From NCBI RefSeq assembly GCF_004349105.1, contig NZ_SMLB01000008.1, positions 62,001-126,000 on the forward strand: 64,000 bases of DNA, written 5' to 3'. Positions 32,471 to 40,623 of this stretch are shown in pieces. Source of the stretch: Jiangella aurantiaca (GTDB lineage Bacteria; Actinomycetota; Actinomycetes; Jiangellales; Jiangellaceae). Numbering within the stretch: the stretch's first letter is position 1; every line of letters begins with the position of its first letter. Position numbers and translations under genes: made by a program. The notes under the pieces are model-generated. The model was given only the letters and a program-made list of their open reading frames with translations. It was not told the DNA's origin and did not search any database.

Positions 32471-33631
32471 TCAGCGACGGTCCCGGAGGCGGTCGAGCAG
32501 GTCCGGGGCGAGTGCGCCGAAGCCCGTCGACGCCCAGGGCTCGACGCCCGCGTCCATGTAGTGCACCACGGTGTCACCGGTCGGCAGGTCGAGCATCTCC
32601 GGCTCGCGCCGCTTGCCGATGTCGCGCCGGCACGCCCCGCAGCAGGGCACGTCGCGGGTACCGGCCGAGGTCCGCCACGTCGCCTTCGTGGTCGCCGGGC
32701 CGTGCAGCGGGTTGAAGAAGCAGGACACCGCGGGCGTCCACGACCGGCCGTCGGCGGCGTGGCTCAACGCGTCGTCGCCACGGCGGGCCAGGACCAGCGC
32801 GCCGATCGCGTCGGCGGCGTCGTCGGAGCGGTCCAGGATCGCCGTCGCCGCCTGGTAGTGGTCGAGCGCGGCGGCCCACGTCGCGCCGTCGTCGCCGTGC
32901 TCGATCTCCAGCTCACGGATCCGCTCGCCCAGCGCCGCGGTCTCGGTCTCGGCGCGGCGGCGCCACTCCCGGGTCTGCGCCGACGAGATCCGGCGCAGCG
33001 CCCGCCGCTTGAGCGCGACCTCGCCCCGCGGCCGCCGGCGCCGCAGCAGGATGACGGCGGCGACGACGACGGCCAGCGCGACGCCGACGCCGATCGCGAC
33101 CGGCGGGTCCATCCCCAGGATCTGCGACGACCCGCCGTCGCCGGTGCTCGTCACGGCCTCCTGCCGCTCGGGGAACTGCTCCTCGTACTCCTGCCGCGCG
33201 TTGCCTCCGGTGAACACCTCGACCGTCTCGACCAGCTGGAGACCGAGGTCGCTCGGGTAGCGGTCGCCGGCCACGTACGTCGCCAGCGCGTCCTCGTTGT
33301 CCGTCGTCACGTTGTAGCTGGTCGCCTCGACGGACCAGCCGAAGTCGACCGATCCGCGGGAGACGAAGTAGACGCCGTCGCGTTCGTTCTCCGGCAGTTC
33401 GCGGTACACGAGCGACACCAGTTGATTGGCCGACACGTCCGCGCCGTGGTTCAACGGCACGGCCAGCACGTGCACCGCCGGGTCGGCGCCGTCGACCAGT
33501 GCGGTGATCTCGGCCAGCTGCTCAGCGGCGATGGTCTCCGCCACCGCTTGGTCGACGTGGACGCCGTCGTCGGCCAGGTCGGCCGCGATGGCCGCCGGGT
33601 CCGGCTGGTAGGTGACCTCGTCGCCGCTCAC
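32471..33631 (-). CDS. unrecognised membrane protein with C-terminal CxxC domain
   Basis: A 386-residue protein, third of a three-gene operon. About 175 residues of mixed alpha/beta sequence (AVHVLAVPLNHGADVS, YFVSRGSVDFGW) precede one membrane segment near residues 176-198 and a basic stop-transfer run RRRRPRGEV. The second half is helical and ends with SCFFNPLHGPA and VPCCGACRRD, four cysteines that may bind a metal. The same C-F-x-N-P-L-H-G plus C-x-x-C arrangement occurs in the first gene of the operon. No signal peptide is evident. The GTG start overlaps the upstream stop. I do not know this family. Confidence 0.75.
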   Translation of the reverse strand: MSGDEVTYQPDPAAIAADLADDGVHVDQAVAETIAAEQLAEITALVDGADPAVHVLAVPLNHGADVSANQLVSLVYRELPENERDGVYFVSRGSVDFGWSVEATSYNVTTDNEDALATYVAGDRYPSDLGLQLVETVEVFTGGNARQEYEEQFPERQEAVTSTGDGGSSQILGMDPPVAIGVGVALAVVVAAVILLRRRRPRGEVALKRRALRRISSAQTREWRRRAETETAALGERIRELEIEHGDDGATWAAALDHYQAATAILDRSDDAADAIGALVLARRGDDALSHAADGRSWTPAVSCFFNPLHGPATTKATWRTSAGTRDVPCCGACRRDIGKRREPEMLDLPTGDTVVHYMDAGVEPWASTGFGALAPDLLDRLRDRR

Positions 33632-34278
33632 GCCGCCGCCTTCCTCCGTCGTGCCAGTGCCCAGCCGACCAGCCCCAGCAGCCCGGCGCCGATACCGCTG
33701 AAGCCGCCGATGACCAGGCCGGCCGCGATCGTCTCGCCGGCGCCGCCCCAGTAGTCGCTGCCGGTGTCCTCGCCCAGGGTGTACTCCCGCCCGTCGTTCT
33801 CCGCGATCTCCTCCAGCAGCCGGGCGGTCTCCGCCGCGCTGGTCCAGGCGCCGTCGAGGGCGCCGTAGACGGAGAAGTACTCGGCGGTGATGCCGACGTC
33901 CGTGCTGTACACGTCGTCGTCCGGACTGACCTCGATGTACAGCCCGGGCCGGTCGGTGAGTGCGCCGATCTGGTGCAGTACGTCGGCGGGCGAGTCGTAG
34001 CCGGCCTGACGGCTGTTCGGCCAGACGACGAGGAAGACCTGCGGGTCCGACGCGGCCGCCGCGGCGTCGAGCCGGCCCAGCTCCTGCTCGGTGAACAGGT
34101 CCTCGACGCTGGGGTCGACGTAGACGTGCGTGTCGGCGAGCACCGCCGCCGCGGCTCGCGCCCGCTCCGCCAGCGGCGGGTCCGGCGTGACGGTGGGAGC
34201 GGCGAGCCACCACGCGACGGCGCCGCCCGCTGCCGCGCAGACGAGCGTGATCAGCAGCCCTACCAGGCGGCGCCTCAT
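33628..34278 (-). CDS. unrecognised membrane protein
   Basis: A 216-residue protein, middle gene of the operon. An N-terminal membrane segment or signal (RRRLVGLLITLVCAAAGGAVAWWLAA region, residues 4-28) leads to an extracytoplasmic domain of about 150 residues (THVYVDPSVED, VFLVVWPNSRQAGYD, GLYIEVSPDDD) and a C-terminal membrane segment near 185-210 with a short basic tail. The domain pattern (a strand followed by helix and strand, with 'VYVDP' near the start) resembles the outer domains of its two operon neighbours, so the three seem to be paralogues. No CxxC tail here. Confidence 0.75.
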   Translation of the reverse strand: MRRRLVGLLITLVCAAAGGAVAWWLAAPTVTPDPPLAERARAAAAVLADTHVYVDPSVEDLFTEQELGRLDAAAAASDPQVFLVVWPNSRQAGYDSPADVLHQIGALTDRPGLYIEVSPDDDVYSTDVGITAEYFSVYGALDGAWTSAAETARLLEEIAENDGREYTLGEDTGSDYWGGAGETIAAGLVIGGFSGIGAGLLGLVGWALARRRKAAA

Positions 34279-35483
34279 CGGCGTGCACTCCGATCGTCGA
34301 GGACCTGTGCGGCGAGGTCGCCGACCAGCGCGCCGAAGCCCGTCCGCGCCCAGACGGTGGACGTCTCGGCGTACGGCGCCCAGCCACGCCACCGGCGGTT
34401 GACGGCGAGGAACCGGCCCTGCGCGCGGGCGCAGTCGCGGCACACCGGCGCGTCGATGGACGAGCCGTCCACTCGGACCGTCCTCTGCGCTTCGCCGTGC
34501 AGCGGGTTGACGAAGCACGGACGGTACGGCGGCCGCTTGGGTGAGCCGGCCCGCTCGACCTCCCGGACGGCGACAGCGGCCAGCACGGTCGCGCCGACGG
34601 CGTCCAACGGGTCGCCGGTCTCGAGGACTCGGTCGCCGGCCTCGACGGCGTCTGCCGCAGCCGACCCGGCGGGTGACGTCAGCCGTGCGGCCGGCAATCC
34701 GGCCAGCCGCCGCCGCGCCTCGTCCAGCCGCCGCCGAGCGATGTCGGCGATATCGCCGGGCACCGGCGTGTACGCAGGCCGCCGGCGCTTCACCACGCCC
34801 CGGCCCACCGGTTCCGCCCGGGCCACGACCAGCGTGATGATCGTGCCGGCGACGAGCACACCGAACACCGTCGCGATCAGCGCCACCCGGCGGCCGGCGG
34901 CCGCGTCGGCGCGGTCGTGGTCCGACTCCGGCAGGATCGCCCACGGCTGGGCCGCGTACTCGTCGACGACGTCGTCTGGCAGCGCCTCGGCCGGCGCGGC
35001 CGCCCAGCGCAGCGTCAGCACCGCCTCGAACAGCGCCGACGCCCGCGGGTACTCGCCCGGCGCGTTCGACTCCGCCCGTTCGATCGCGTGCGTGACCGGC
35101 GCCAGGTAGGCGTCGTCGAGCTCGTCGTCGCCCCAGGACTGGGTGTAGGAGATGCCCTCACGGAACTCGACGTGGTAGAGCCCATCGCCCAGCTCGGCCC
35201 GGAACAGCGCGGCCGCCTGCTCCGCGACGGAGTCGGTGCCCGCCATGTCGGCAGGGGTGTCGGCCAGCACGACGTAGACGGGCAGGTCGAGGCCGGCGGC
35301 GGCTGCGGTGAGCACGTCGTGCGCACGCTCGGAGTCGCCCATGCCCATCGACGGCTGCACCAGGATCGGGTCGGTCCGCAGCTGCTCGACGATCTCCGCG
35401 ACGGTGTCCGCGTGCTCGTCGTCGGCGGCGGCCGGTGCCCCCAGCAGCAGCGCGGCGGCGGTCAAGGAGGGGAGGAGGGGCAC
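34275..35483 (-). CDS. unrecognised secreted/membrane protein with C-terminal CxxC domain
   Basis: A 402-residue protein, first gene of the operon. Signal peptide at residues 1-20 (LPSLTAAALLLGAPAAA), extracytoplasmic alpha/beta domain to about 195 (ILVQPSMGMGDS, LPVYVVLADTPADMAG), one membrane segment near 202-223 and a cytoplasmic half with CFVNPLHGEAQ followed by APVCRDCARAQGRF: a four-Cys motif like that of the third gene. GGAGG precedes the GTG start. The outer domain faintly recalls TPM-type domains, but I would not claim it. Function unknown. Confidence 0.75.
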   Translation of the reverse strand: MPLLPSLTAAALLLGAPAAADDEHADTVAEIVEQLRTDPILVQPSMGMGDSERAHDVLTAAAAGLDLPVYVVLADTPADMAGTDSVAEQAAALFRAELGDGLYHVEFREGISYTQSWGDDELDDAYLAPVTHAIERAESNAPGEYPRASALFEAVLTLRWAAAPAEALPDDVVDEYAAQPWAILPESDHDRADAAAGRRVALIATVFGVLVAGTIITLVVARAEPVGRGVVKRRRPAYTPVPGDIADIARRRLDEARRRLAGLPAARLTSPAGSAAADAVEAGDRVLETGDPLDAVGATVLAAVAVREVERAGSPKRPPYRPCFVNPLHGEAQRTVRVDGSSIDAPVCRDCARAQGRFLAVNRRWRGWAPYAETSTVWARTGFGALVGDLAAQVLDDRSARR

Positions 35484-35619: not shown

Positions 35620-36603
35620 ATGACACTCGACCGACCGACGGCCATCGCCGCGACCGGCCTGCGCAAGTCGTACGGCGAGCAGACCGTCCTCGACGGCATC
35701 GACATCTCCGTCCCTGAAGGCACGGTCTTCTCCTTGCTCGGCCCGAACGGCGCCGGCAAGACCACCACCGTCCAGATCCTCTCCACGCTGATCGAGGCCG
35801 ACGGCGGCAGCGTCCGCGTCGCGGGCCACGACCTGGCGACCGACGCCGACGGCATCCGCGGCGCGATCGGCGTCACCGGCCAGTTCTCCGCCGTCGACAA
35901 CCTGCTGACCGGCGAGGAGAACCTGCTCCTCATGGCCGACCTCAACCACCTGGACCGGCGCGAGGGCCGGCGGCGGACGGCGGAGCTGCTGGAGCGGTTC
36001 GACCTGGTGGACGCCGCCAAGAAGACACCGGCACTGTACTCCGGCGGCATGCGCCGCAAGCTCGACCTGGCGATGACGCTGGTCGGCGACCCCAAGGTGA
36101 TCTTCCTGGACGAGCCGACGACGGGCCTGGACCCGCGAACCCGGCGCATCATGTGGGACGCCATCCGCGGGCTCGTCGCCGGCGGCGTCACGATCTTCCT
36201 CACCACGCAGTACCTGGAGGAGGCAGACGAGCTGGCCGACCGGATCGCGCTGCTCGACCACGGAAAGATCGTCGCCGAGGGCACGTCCGACGAGCTGAAG
36301 CGGCTCATCCCGGGCGGGCACATCCGGCTGCAGTTCACCGACCCGGCCGAGCTGGACCAGGCCGCCCGCACGTTCGCCGGCTCCACCCGCGACGACGCGG
36401 CGCTGGCCCTGCAGGTCCCCAGCGACGGCGACGTTGACTCGCTGCGAGCCGTCCTCGACCACCTCGACGTCGCCTCCATCGAGGTCGCGTCGCTCACCGT
36501 GCACACCCCCGACCTCGACGACGTCTTCCTCGCACTGACCGGCCGGCCGGCCGAGTCAGCCGCCGACGCCGACGACACCCAGCAGAAGGAGACCGTCCGA
36601 TGA
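35620..36603 (+). CDS. DrrA-type ABC exporter ATP-binding protein
   Basis: A 327-residue ATPase of the daunorubicin-resistance type. Walker A is LLGPNGAGKTTTVQIL, signature LYSGGMRRKLDLAMTL, Walker B VIFLDEPTTGLDPRTR and H-loop LTTQYLEEADELADR; the long C-terminal tail ends LDDVFLALTGR as in DrrA. CGAGGAG lies just before the ATG. It pairs with the permease whose start overlaps its stop. Together they would export a hydrophobic compound or lipid; the substrate is not predictable. Confidence 0.93.
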   Translation: MTLDRPTAIAATGLRKSYGEQTVLDGIDISVPEGTVFSLLGPNGAGKTTTVQILSTLIEADGGSVRVAGHDLATDADGIRGAIGVTGQFSAVDNLLTGEENLLLMADLNHLDRREGRRRTAELLERFDLVDAAKKTPALYSGGMRRKLDLAMTLVGDPKVIFLDEPTTGLDPRTRRIMWDAIRGLVAGGVTIFLTTQYLEEADELADRIALLDHGKIVAEGTSDELKRLIPGGHIRLQFTDPAELDQAARTFAGSTRDDAALALQVPSDGDVDSLRAVLDHLDVASIEVASLTVHTPDLDDVFLALTGRPAESAADADDTQQKETVR

Positions 36604-37391
36604 GTGCCCTCGCCCTCGCTGCCCGCGACTCGCGCACCATGCTGCGCCGCAACATGCGCCGGTGGGCCCGCTACCCGGCGATGACCGTGCAGCTGATCGC
36701 CCTCCCGGTGATCATGCTGCTGATGTTCGCCTTCGTCTTCGGCGAGACGCTCGGCGCCGGGCTCGGAGGTGCGGCCGGCGACCGCGGCGACTACATCGAA
36801 TACCTCGTCCCCGGCATCCTCCTGATGACGGTGGCCGCCGCGATCCAGGGCACGGCGATCTCCGTCGCCATGGACATGCACGAGGGCATCATCGCCCGGT
36901 TCCGCACCATGGCGATCTCGCGTGGCGCGGTGCTCACCGGGCACGTGATCGGCAGCTTCCTGCAGACGCTGGTCGGCCTGGCCATCGTGTTCGGGGTGGC
37001 GCTGCTGATCGGCTTCCGGCCCGACGCGAACATGGCGGAGTGGGTCGCCGCCGTAGGCCTGCTCTGCTTGTTCGCCATCGCGCTGACCTGGCTCGCCGTC
37101 GCGATGGGCCTGCAGGCGAAGAGCGTCGAGACCGCGAGCAACACGCCGACGCTCCTGGTGTTGCTGCCGTTCCTGGGCAGTGGGTTCGTCCCGACCGACT
37201 CGATGCCGGCCGGCCTGCGCTGGTTCGCCGAGTACCAGCCGTTCAGCCCGGTGATCGAGACGCTGCGCGGCCTGCTGCTGGGCACCGAGATCGGCAACAA
37301 CGGCGTCCTCGCCTTGGGCTGGACCGCGGTGATCGGGGTGCTCGGCTACTTCTGGGCGCTCAAGCTGTTCCGCCGCCCGCCGGTCCGCTGA
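36600..37391 (+). CDS. DrrB-type ABC-2 transporter permease
   Basis: A 263-residue permease with six hydrophobic segments and ABC-2 features: an N-terminal cytoplasmic helix (SRTMLRRNMRRWARYP), YLVPGILLMTVAAA, and the final FLGSGFVPTDSMPAGLRWFAEYQPFSPVIE pattern (block YQPFSPVIETLRGLLLG). It overlaps the DrrA-type gene by 4 bases. Its last 32 bases overlap the 3' end of the convergent SARP gene, a tight arrangement that helps keep the three genes together. Confidence 0.92.
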   Translation: MSALALAARDSRTMLRRNMRRWARYPAMTVQLIALPVIMLLMFAFVFGETLGAGLGGAAGDRGDYIEYLVPGILLMTVAAAIQGTAISVAMDMHEGIIARFRTMAISRGAVLTGHVIGSFLQTLVGLAIVFGVALLIGFRPDANMAEWVAAVGLLCLFAIALTWLAVAMGLQAKSVETASNTPTLLVLLPFLGSGFVPTDSMPAGLRWFAEYQPFSPVIETLRGLLLGTEIGNNGVLALGWTAVIGVLGYFWALKLFRRPPVR

Positions 37392-40300
37392 TCGGCCGGC
37401 CCTCCTGGGCCAGCACCGAAGCGGCCAGCTCGCGCAGCCAGGAGTAGGCCGCGTCGCCGTCCAGGCCGGCAAGCTCCCGCTCCGTCTCGGCGAGCAGTTC
37501 CGAGGCCGCCCCGTCGCCCAGTGCGGCGCGGGCGGCCTCGTCGGCGTGTACGCCCCCGGGAGCGGACCGGTCGAGCCCGCCGGCCAGCACCTCGACGGCG
37601 GCCAGCAGCCGGACGGCGTCGGCCGGCCGGCCCCGGCGCAGCGCGTGGTCGGCGATCCCGACCAGCACCGTCCCGACCGTCTCCTCGTCGCTGTCGTCGC
37701 TGCCCAGGACGGCCGCCAGCGCTTCCGCTCGGGCTGCGGCCGCGGCGTCCCACCTCCCCTCCTCGGCGTCCAGCCAGGCCTGGAGCTCCAGCATGATGGC
37801 CCGGAACACCGGGTGGACCGGGACGTCCCGCAGCAGCGCGCGCGCACGGGCCAGCTGCTGCCGCGCGGTGACGGTATCGCTCGCCCAGATGGCGAGGCCG
37901 GCGCGGTGGAGCGCCATGATGGCCAGGCCGTCGGGCCAGGCGACCTGCTCGGCGTCGCGCTCGGCCCGCGCGACCTCGGCGGCGCTGCCGGCCCGGTCGC
38001 CGGCCAGCCACCGCAGCTGGGCGAGCCGGCTGCGCATCATGACGATGTCGTCGACGGTGCCGATCTCGCTGATGGCGACGATGGCCTGCTCGTACTGCTC
38101 GATGGCCCGCTTCAGCTCGCCGCGCCGGGCGTACAGGTCCGCGAGCGTGGTGAGCGCGTACGAGATGCCCCACCGCTCGCCGACGGCGCGGAACTCGGCG
38201 AGCGCCTGGGTGAGGTCGGCCTCCCGCTCCTGGGCCGGCAGCATCTGTGCCCGCGTCAGCCGCGCCTGGGCACGGAACCACGGGTCGGGGTCCTCCAGCA
38301 GCGGCGCCAGTGCGTCGGCGAGGCTCGTGAGCGGATCATGCTCGGGGTCGAGGATCACGCTCAACGGGTCCATGAACCGCAGGAACGGCCCGGGCTTCTC
38401 GACGCCGGCGGCCAGCTCGCGGGCCTGGCGTACCCAGTCTGCGGCCTCCCTGAGGTCGCCCACCCCGCTGGTGATCAGAAAGGTGACGACGGCGCACGCG
38501 GTGGCCCGTGCCTCGAGGTCGGTGGGGCCGGGCACGGCCAGCGCCTGGATCGCCAGCTCGATCCCGTCGTTCTTGTGGCCGCTGAGCCACCAGTACCAGC
38601 CGCAGGCCGCCACCAGCCGTACCGCGTTCTCGGCGTCGCCGGCGGCGCTCGCACGGCGCAGTGCCACCGTGATGTCGTCGTGCACCGCGCGCATCCGGCG
38701 CAGCCACTCCAGCTGCTCGGCACGATGCAGGTGCGGTTCGGCGGTCTCGGCCAGCTCGATCAGCCAGCCGATGTGCGCCCGCCGGACGGTGTCGAGCTCG
38801 CCCACCTCGTCCAGTCGCTCCAGGCCGTACGCCTTGATGGTCTCGAGCAGCCGGTACCGGGGCGCGTCGCCGTCGTCGTCGACCACCACCAGCGACTTGT
38901 CGCTGAGGGAGCTCAGCTCGGCGAGGACGTCGGCGCCGTCGCCGCACACCTGCGCCGCGGCCTCCGCCGTCGCGCCGCCGGCGAACACCGCGAGCCGGCG
39001 CAGCGCGACGCGTTCGGGCTCGGGCAGCAGGCCCCAGCTCCAGTCGACGACGGCGCGCAGCGTCTGGTGGCGGGGTAGCGCGGTACGGCTGCCGCCGGTG
39101 AGCAGCCGGAATCGGTCGTCCAGCCGGGCGGCCAGCTGCTCGGCGGTCATGGTGCGCAGCCGGGCCGCGGCCAGCTCGATGGCCAGCGGCATGCCGTCGA
39201 GCGCGCGGCCGATGCGGGCGACGGCGTGCGCGTCGGCGTCGGTGACGGCGAAGCCCGGGCGGACGGCGCGGGCGCGGTCGACGAGCAGCCGGACGGCGTC
39301 GAAGCCCAGCAGGTCACCGGCGTCGCCGTCGCGCTCGGGCGGCAGCGCCAGCGGCTCGACCGGCCAGACCGCCTCGCCGGTGATGCCGAGCGGCTCGCGG
39401 CTGGTCGCGAGGATGCGCAGGTCAGGGCATTCGCCGAGGAGCCGGTCGGCCAGCGCCGCGGCGGCGTCGATGACGTGCTCGCAGTTGTCCAGCAGCAGCA
39501 GGGCGGTCCGGGTCCGCAGCGCCGCGACCAGGCGGCCGGTGGCGTCGTCGGTGCTGACGCCGAACGTCTGGTCGCGCAGGTCGAGGGCGCCGAGCACCGC
39601 GGCGGGCAGGTCGGCGTCATTGGCCACCGGGGCCAGCTCGATCAGCCAGACGCCGTCGGGCATCCGGTCCACCAGTCCTCGCGACGCCTCGCCGGCCAGC
39701 CGGGTCTTGCCCGACCCGCCCGGCCCGGTGAGCGTCGTCAGCCGGTACTCGCCGATTAGGTCGCGCACCCGGGCGACGTCGGCGTCGCGGCCGATGAAGC
39801 TGGTCAGCGCGGTACGCAGGTTGGTCCGCGGCGGGGCCGGGGACGCAGCCGCCGGTGGCGCGGGCCGTGCCGGTTCGGGGGCGTTCTCGTGCAGCTCACC
39901 GCGCAGGATGGCCGTGTGCAGGGCGGCGAGCTCGGCGGACGGGTCGGTGCCCAGTTCGTCGGCGAGCGCCTCACGGATCCGCTCGTAGGCCGCGAGCGCC
40001 TCCGCCGGGCGGCCGGCCGCGACCAGCGCCCGCATCAGTTGCCCGGCCAGCCGCTCTCGCAGCGGGTACTCGGCGACCAGCGTGGTCAGTTCGGTGGTCA
40101 GCCCGGCGCCGCGGCCCAGGCGCATTGCCGCGTCGGCGCGGTCCTCCGTCGCCGTCAGGCGCAGCTCCTCCAGCCGCGCCCGCGGCGCCTCGAAGAACTC
40201 CGACTCCGCGACGTCCAGCAGCGCCGGGCCGCGCCACAGCGCCAGCGCTGCCAGCAGCCTGTCCTCCACCGCGGCGTCGCCGGACGCGGACCGGGCGGCC

Positions 40301-40623
40301 GCGACCTGCCGCTCGAACCGCGCGGCGTCGACGGCGTCGGGGTCCAGCGCCAGCCGGTAGCCGGCCGGATGCGACTCGATCGCCAGTCCCGGCAGCGCCC
40401 GCCGCAGCCGCGACACCAGCGCCTGCAGCGCGTTCGCCGCGCCGGCCGGCGGCTCGTCGCCCCAGATGCCGTCGACCAGCTGGGCCGCCGGGACCAGCCG
40501 GCCCGGCTCGAGCGCCAGGATGATCAGCAGCGTGCGCAGCCGCGCGCCGGCCACGTAGATCGACGAGCCGGCGTCGTCGAGGACCTCCAGCGGTCCCAGG
40601 ATCCCGATGCGCACCGGACGCAT
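37360..40623 (-). CDS. large SARP (AfsR-like) regulator: BTAD, NB-ARC and helical repeats
   Basis: A 1087-residue regulator. Residues 1-95 form an OmpR-type winged helix (VRIGILGPLEVLDDAG, RLRTLLIILALEPG, ANALQALVSRLRRALPG); 97-245 a bacterial transcriptional activation domain (LWRGPALLDVAESEF, YEYPLRERL-like); about 275-560 an NB-ARC ATPase with Walker A TGPGGSGKTRLAGE and Walker B ALLLLDNCEHV; the rest is TPR-like helices. Such AfsR-class proteins activate adjacent export or metabolite genes. The direct repeats at 35516 before the drrA-type gene are the probable target. Confidence 0.92.
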   Translation of the reverse strand: MRPVRIGILGPLEVLDDAGSSIYVAGARLRTLLIILALEPGRLVPAAQLVDGIWGDEPPAGAANALQALVSRLRRALPGLAIESHPAGYRLALDPDAVDAARFERQVAAARSASGDAAVEDRLLAALALWRGPALLDVAESEFFEAPRARLEELRLTATEDRADAAMRLGRGAGLTTELTTLVAEYPLRERLAGQLMRALVAAGRPAEALAAYERIREALADELGTDPSAELAALHTAILRGELHENAPEPARPAPPAAASPAPPRTNLRTALTSFIGRDADVARVRDLIGEYRLTTLTGPGGSGKTRLAGEASRGLVDRMPDGVWLIELAPVANDADLPAAVLGALDLRDQTFGVSTDDATGRLVAALRTRTALLLLDNCEHVIDAAAALADRLLGECPDLRILATSREPLGITGEAVWPVEPLALPPERDGDAGDLLGFDAVRLLVDRARAVRPGFAVTDADAHAVARIGRALDGMPLAIELAAARLRTMTAEQLAARLDDRFRLLTGGSRTALPRHQTLRAVVDWSWGLLPEPERVALRRLAVFAGGATAEAAAQVCGDGADVLAELSSLSDKSLVVVDDDGDAPRYRLLETIKAYGLERLDEVGELDTVRRAHIGWLIELAETAEPHLHRAEQLEWLRRMRAVHDDITVALRRASAAGDAENAVRLVAACGWYWWLSGHKNDGIELAIQALAVPGPTDLEARATACAVVTFLITSGVGDLREAADWVRQARELAAGVEKPGPFLRFMDPLSVILDPEHDPLTSLADALAPLLEDPDPWFRAQARLTRAQMLPAQEREADLTQALAEFRAVGERWGISYALTTLADLYARRGELKRAIEQYEQAIVAISEIGTVDDIVMMRSRLAQLRWLAGDRAGSAAEVARAERDAEQVAWPDGLAIMALHRAGLAIWASDTVTARQQLARARALLRDVPVHPVFRAIMLELQAWLDAEEGRWDAAAAARAEALAAVLGSDDSDEETVGTVLVGIADHALRRGRPADAVRLLAAVEVLAGGLDRSAPGGVHADEAARAALGDGAASELLAETERELAGLDGDAAYSWLRELAASVLAQEGRPISGPAGGGTA

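Follow-up and report, generated by a model that had tools for sequence, protein, structure and literature searches.

What do three overlapping genes without a database name encode, and what might their products do together? The genes lie in a stretch of 64,000 nucleotides from Jiangella aurantiaca, which was analysed as a whole and is called the window here. An earlier note, made from the sequence of the window, had placed three overlapping genes at 32471–35483, and the coordinates proved to be exact. The segment contains three genes on the minus strand, G1, G2, and G3, and each junction is a four-base overlap, i.e. ATGA for G1/G2 and GTGA for G2/G3 (Table 1). None of the three proteins reaches a curated cut-off in Pfam or NCBIfam, and a search of the PDB by sequence returned no relative. 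Two candidate assignments were rejected. PADLOC returned nothing above the cut-off, and its match to Cas12b (E 0.024), which falls on a helical stretch, was taken as chance. The assignment of G3 as a GVDTG sorting-domain protein (NF058571) reached 23.2 bits versus a cut-off of 29, and the matched TM helix is internal, with about 190 residues following it.

Table 1. Features of the three-gene locus, with positions in the window
Feature	Position	Strand	Description and basis
G1	34275..35483	-	402 aa, GTG start; signal peptide, predicted outer TPM-fold domain, one TM helix, predicted cytoplasmic three-helix region, C-x5-H/CxxC tail
G1 predicted outer TPM-fold domain	34953..35402	-	residues ~28-177; AlphaFold2 model and structural alignment
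G1 predicted cytoplasmic tail	34278..34532	-	C323, H329 (CFVNPLHG); C348, C351 (CRDC); probably treble-clef-like; conservation, model secondary structure, motif
G2	33628..34278	-	216 aa; N-terminal hydrophobic segment, predicted outer domain, C-terminal TM helix then RRRK; no zinc tail
G2 predicted outer domain	33829..34179	-	TPM-like only by homology, to the outer domains of G3 and G1
G3	32471..33631	-	386 aa, GTG start; predicted outer TPM-fold domain, one TM helix then RRRR, predicted cytoplasmic three-helix region, C-x5-H/CxxC tail
G3 predicted outer TPM-fold domain	33176..33604	-	residues 10-152; AlphaFold2 block, pLDDT mostly >90
G3 TM helix, then RRRR	33044..33106	-	residues ~176-196; sequence, homologue hydropathy
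G3 predicted cytoplasmic three-helix region	32744..33025	-	residues 203-296; model
G3 predicted cytoplasmic tail	32474..32734	-	invariant C304, H310, C331, C334; conservation and model

The earlier note had also regarded the three products as related proteins with outer domains, and the comparison of the domains agrees with this. When the window was searched with an HMM made from the outer domain of G3, G2 and G1 were recovered with E values of 8e-9 and 2e-7, respectively, and the profile-profile probabilities are 99.4% for G3 and G1, 99.6% for G3 and G2, and 99.3% for G1 and G2. By sequence comparison, the three outer domains are paralogous.

Structure prediction of the outer domains, which the earlier note had proposed as a check, yielded the TPM fold for the models of G1 and G3. 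AlphaFold2 models of G3 (me9c1fe402ab1, mean pLDDT 83.3) and G1 (mce1b86fa2655, mean pLDDT 86.6) were compared by structural alignment (VIA). For G3, ranks 1–7 are all TPM proteins, with Z values of 10.7–12.7, i.e. 3ptj (12.7) and 3pvh (12.5), both TLP18.3, 2kw7 (11.9), 8c7i (Psb32, 11.8), 5anp (BA41, 11.7), 7tbr (11.2), and 2kpt (cg2496, 10.7). Chains of the mycobacterial CIII2CIV2 supercomplex have values of 9.2 (6adq_J), 8.9 (6hwh_O), and 8.4 (8hcr_J). For G1, TLP18.3 is again at the top (3ptj, 10.1), and the values for 5anp (BA41), 2kpt (cg2496), 2kw7 (PG_0361), and 8c7i (Psb32) are 9.5, 9.4, 9.2, and 9.1, respectively; these matches are interspersed with helical-bundle matches to the other region of G1. 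Foldseek is weak alone (best E 0.058), and its top three matches are likewise TPM proteins.

At the level of sequence families, the Pfam TPM model (PF04536) recognises neither G1 nor G2 nor G3. Pfam TPM_phosphatase is touched by 7 of the 64 G1 homologues and is the commonest family there, with a best E of 0.008, which is below the cut-off, and no match to it was found among the G3 homologues scanned. Rv1476 (PF20381) gives a weak match in one G1 homologue (E 0.047). Profiles of G1, G2, and G3 were compared with a canonical TPM set of 28 domains from relatives. The scores are 33.6, 37.8, and 34.2, with nominal probabilities of only 54–83%, versus maxima of 14.4, 15.7, and 18.6 in column shuffles (60 each) and 16.6–17.8 in reversed controls. 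Because the profile scores exceed both types of control and the structural alignments are led by TPM proteins, we conclude that the outer domains are distant members of the TPM superfamily that are missed by Pfam; we consider both the fold and the paralogy very probable. The TPM fold is seen in the models of G1 and G3, and G2 is predicted to be TPM-like by homology. Thus, the earlier view that no family could be recognised holds true for the Pfam and NCBIfam models, but not for the fold of the outer domain.

The locations of the domains were predicted from hydropathy, signal peptides, and the Arg-rich stretches after the TM helices, which together place the outer domains outside the membrane and the tails of G1 and G3 in the cytoplasm. 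Signal peptides are present in G1 and in the Streptomyces homologues. No recognisable signal peptide was found for G3 in Jiangella; its outer domain is put outside on the basis of hydropathy, of positive charges (R197 and R199, just after the TM helix, are nearly invariant), and of homologues that have a signal peptide.

The tails of G1 and G3 had been described as sharing a four-cysteine motif that is likely to bind a metal. The shared CFxNPLHG and CxxC elements were recovered, but the ligand set common to both tails is C-x5-H followed by CxxC, i.e. three Cys and one His; C330 of G3 lies outside the shared motif, and the G1 tail holds only three Cys. Across the 6.6 Mb genome there are just two copies of CFxNPLHG, one each in G1 and G3, and the reversed pattern has no match. 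None of the four G3 positions varies among 59 homologues; in 64 G1 homologues, the three Cys are invariant and H329 is conserved in at least 90%. The window's own G1 row is out of frame in alignment A3 and was excluded from all claims about G1. In the G3 model, C304 and H310 precede a hairpin (315–330), and C331 and C334 are located at the start of a helix (332–339), a layout that resembles a treble-clef finger. The G1 tail may likewise be treble-clef-like, and we infer that both tails bind zinc. The invariant C-H-C-C set supports the metal site as probable and predicted, whereas the count of cysteines in the earlier note was wrong. A structural search gave no PDB match for the zinc tail, which is no evidence for a new fold, and no paper on a CFxNPLHG family was found in the literature.

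Co-occurrence was a further check proposed earlier, and it yielded a consistent picture. Wherever the locus is intact in Jiangellaceae, which is the case in 17 genomes, the trio is contiguous, i.e. adjacent orthologues in the same order were found in 12 of the 12 Jiangella genomes searched, including the window's own, and in five genomes of the next genus; in one more genome, G3 is located at the edge of a contig. The loci closest to the window operon are those of Jiangella species, and dN/dS values versus Jiangella orthologues are 0.24–0.40 for G1 and G3 and 0.54–0.63 for G2. Homologous operons are present in other orders, in Streptomyces, Actinomadura, Actinoallomurus, Nocardioides, Brevibacterium, and others. 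With O for an outer domain and Z for a tail, the architecture is OZ, O, OZ in Jiangellaceae and Nocardioides, and O, OZ, OZ in Actinomadura. About 20 Streptomyces have an O-O-Z fusion followed by O-Z, and Brevibacterium has an O-Z-O fusion followed by O-Z. The two fusions in different orders provide good evidence for a joint function of the G1-type and G2-type parts. The contiguous overlapping genes, the recurrence of the trio in several actinobacterial orders, and the two different fusions argue that the three subunits form one membrane complex, so that this part of the earlier note is now well supported. In Brevibacterium, a gene for a 604-aa protein with no Pfam match lies directly upstream of the O-Z-O fusion (L102, 4025–5839).

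A member of the wider family is present in 33 of the 296 genomes sampled from the phylum. No relative was found on viral contigs, and a plasmid collection gave one Streptomyces match, which is without annotation. The operon set is widespread in soil actinobacteria, and it has neither a name nor a family in Pfam or NCBIfam. The window's genome contains at least six family members, including a tandem pair of paralogues with the motifs CFFDQRHG and CFFDPRHG (L113, 2119–4655, contig C21).

Another paralogue, P4 (L112, L116, L167), is likewise unnamed in Pfam and NCBIfam. It belongs to the same family by tree and HMM, and shares the order of outer domain, TM helix, helical region, and tail. It differs from G1 and G3 in being a single gene, in having CxxD for CxxC, and in its Gly-rich C-terminus; the replacement of the last Cys by Asp speaks against a metal finger. 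In a tree built from the helical region and the tail, G1 proteins form one clade (60 members, support 0.87) and P4 proteins another (36 members, support 1.0), with the G3-type proteins in groups apart from both, which indicates that the split of G1, G3, and P4 predates these genera. In the window's genome, P4 (CFFDPGHGP) is found at the start of L167 (contig C14, 1–14000), where its neighbours are a PPOX-like gene and the gene for an acyl-CoA carboxylase alpha subunit, and the same arrangement recurs in other actinobacteria.

How does the trio compare with characterised systems? No characterised complex matched the three-gene set. The TPM superfamily (PF04536; TLP18.3, Psb32, BA41/BA42, cg2496, YdjH) shares the outer-domain fold (Z 9–12.7) and the predicted extracytoplasmic location of the domain, and the sequence relation to it is weak but shuffle-controlled. 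Unlike its known members, G1–G3 are below the PF04536 cut-off, occur as three paralogues per operon, and have no Gly-rich tail, and G1 and G3 add a predicted cytoplasmic helical region and a C-H-C-C finger after the TM helix. The mycobacterial supercomplex contains a TPM subunit, Msmeg_4692 (PMC8267372), which belongs to an actinobacterial membrane complex and has the fold of the G3 outer domain; in contrast, it is a single small protein of a respiratory complex without a zinc tail. Nothing ties the window operon to respiration, and no respiratory gene is present among those operon neighbours that were identified. Rv1476 is an actinobacterial membrane protein too, but a single gene. This is a real and conserved trio of divergent TPM proteins with predicted cytoplasmic fingers, nameless in the libraries searched.

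Published work links TPM proteins to photosystem II repair and to respiratory complexes; YdjH acts with PspA, and it has been proposed that TPM proteins assist, in the manner of chaperones, when membrane complexes are built (PMC11237479). CcoZ of C. jejuni, a TPM protein modelled on Msmeg_4692, is required for full cbb3 oxidase activity (PMC8267372). A link to phage-shock PspA, suggested by a PSP paper, was considered for the present family and dropped, as no PspA was found beside the P4 locus L116, which was read gene by gene, or among the neighbours scanned.

We favour a scaffold or an assembly and quality-control complex of three TPM subunits with docking by cytoplasmic zinc fingers, a reading that we hold tentatively and put a little short of an even chance. 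Each subunit would position one TPM-fold domain outside the membrane. In G1 and G3, the single TM helix would lead into the cytoplasmic helical region capped by the finger, and G2 would consist of a TPM domain with TM anchors only. The outer domains would hold extracytoplasmic domains of a client, as is thought for TLP18.3, Psb32, and the mycobacterial supercomplex subunit, and the fingers would dock cytoplasmic partners, the client being some membrane-linked protein complex. The choice is based on the published assembly roles of TPM proteins, on the disputed phosphatase label, and on the conserved columns of the outer domain, which are mostly non-polar: among 59 G3 homologues, the columns that hardly vary hold hydrophobic residues, Gly, Pro, or Tyr, and acidic residues exceed 80% only at positions 27, 85, and 138. 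An assembly function may thus be assumed, but a shared fold does not show function, and no assembly client or stress gene adjoins the window copy. Of the sensing or quality-control function suggested earlier, quality control fits the TPM fold and the published chaperone-like views, whereas sensing has no specific support.

A sensor is an unlikely alternative. Outer TPM domains would detect a condition of the envelope and signal through the TM and cytoplasmic helices to zinc fingers that act on a cytoplasmic regulator. The order of outer domain, TM helix, cytoplasmic helices, and finger is indeed that of a receptor, and several paralogues are present per genome. However, the proteins have no kinase, anti-sigma, or regulator domain, and no conserved regulator adjoins the operon across genera. 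Next to the window copy, only local neighbours are present, namely a pair of DrrA/DrrB-type ABC genes in divergent orientation and a regulator of the GntR/UTRA type; the AfsR/SARP-type regulator near this copy is local, too. At 35620–40614, the ABC pair is divergent from G1 and is followed by the gene for this regulator of 1084 aa. Clustering of neighbours showed that the operon itself is the only gene common to the Streptomyces and Actinomadura contexts.

The neighbourhoods in other genera bear on a second and somewhat more improbable alternative, i.e. that an acyl-CoA carboxylase is linked to the membrane through its biotin-carboxylase (alpha) subunit, which the helical regions and zinc tails would bind or position there; the supply of malonyl- or methylmalonyl-CoA would thereby be coupled to the state of the envelope. 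In several orders, the operon is directly preceded, on the same strand, by a biotin-carboxylase/BCCP gene: this holds for Nocardioides, three Phytoactinopolyspora, two Actinomadura, Actinoallomurus, a Streptosporangiales MAG, and others, with gaps of about 10–90 bp in tight cases. In these loci, P4 usually follows the operon. Where P4 occurs without the operon, it is near the biotin-carboxylase gene in the genome of the window (L167) and in seven further genomes. In Phytoactinopolyspora, the second operon copy is the carboxylase-linked one; P. halotolerans and P. limicola each have two operons, one of the window type and one linked to the acyl-CoA carboxylase (L037/L051 and L040/L046). The pattern points to an origin of the trio by tandem duplication in the carboxylase neighbourhood. 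The adjacency is possibly a clue to function, but it may also be inherited gene order, which is a sufficient explanation because LPD and PNP genes are common to the same neighbourhood. Furthermore, the operons of the window, of Streptomyces, and of most Actinomadura have no carboxylase neighbour; that of Actinomadura chibensis (L047, 4080–11949) lies instead between whiA and gap/pgk, a core-gene locus, and most Actinomadura loci have the same gene clusters on their flanks.

We consider it more doubtful still that the outer domains are exported, membrane-anchored enzymes of the TPM phosphatase or nucleotidase type. The Pfam family name TPM_phosphatase points in this direction, and PMC11237479 and PMC13089150 cite works that report phosphatase and ATPase activities of TPM domains. 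The non-polar character of the near-invariant columns and the scarcity of conserved acidic residues argue against an enzyme, and a phosphatase role of TPM has been judged unlikely (PMC12419801). Least likely of all is an undescribed actinobacterial TPM and zinc-finger complex of three subunits that would span the membrane, hold extracytoplasmic clients outside and an acyl-CoA carboxylase or another metabolic enzyme inside, and would tie envelope assembly to precursor supply.

The analysis provides a predicted fold and a testable role for three genes that are blank in Pfam and NCBIfam across Streptomyces, Actinomadura, and other actinobacteria, i.e. in groups that are heavily studied for antibiotics. 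The function of TPM domains is disputed, phosphatase versus assembly chaperone. A dedicated complex of three TPM subunits with inner zinc fingers would, if true, be a clean place to settle this dispute, and the two-gene fusion operons are available for this in tractable Streptomyces.
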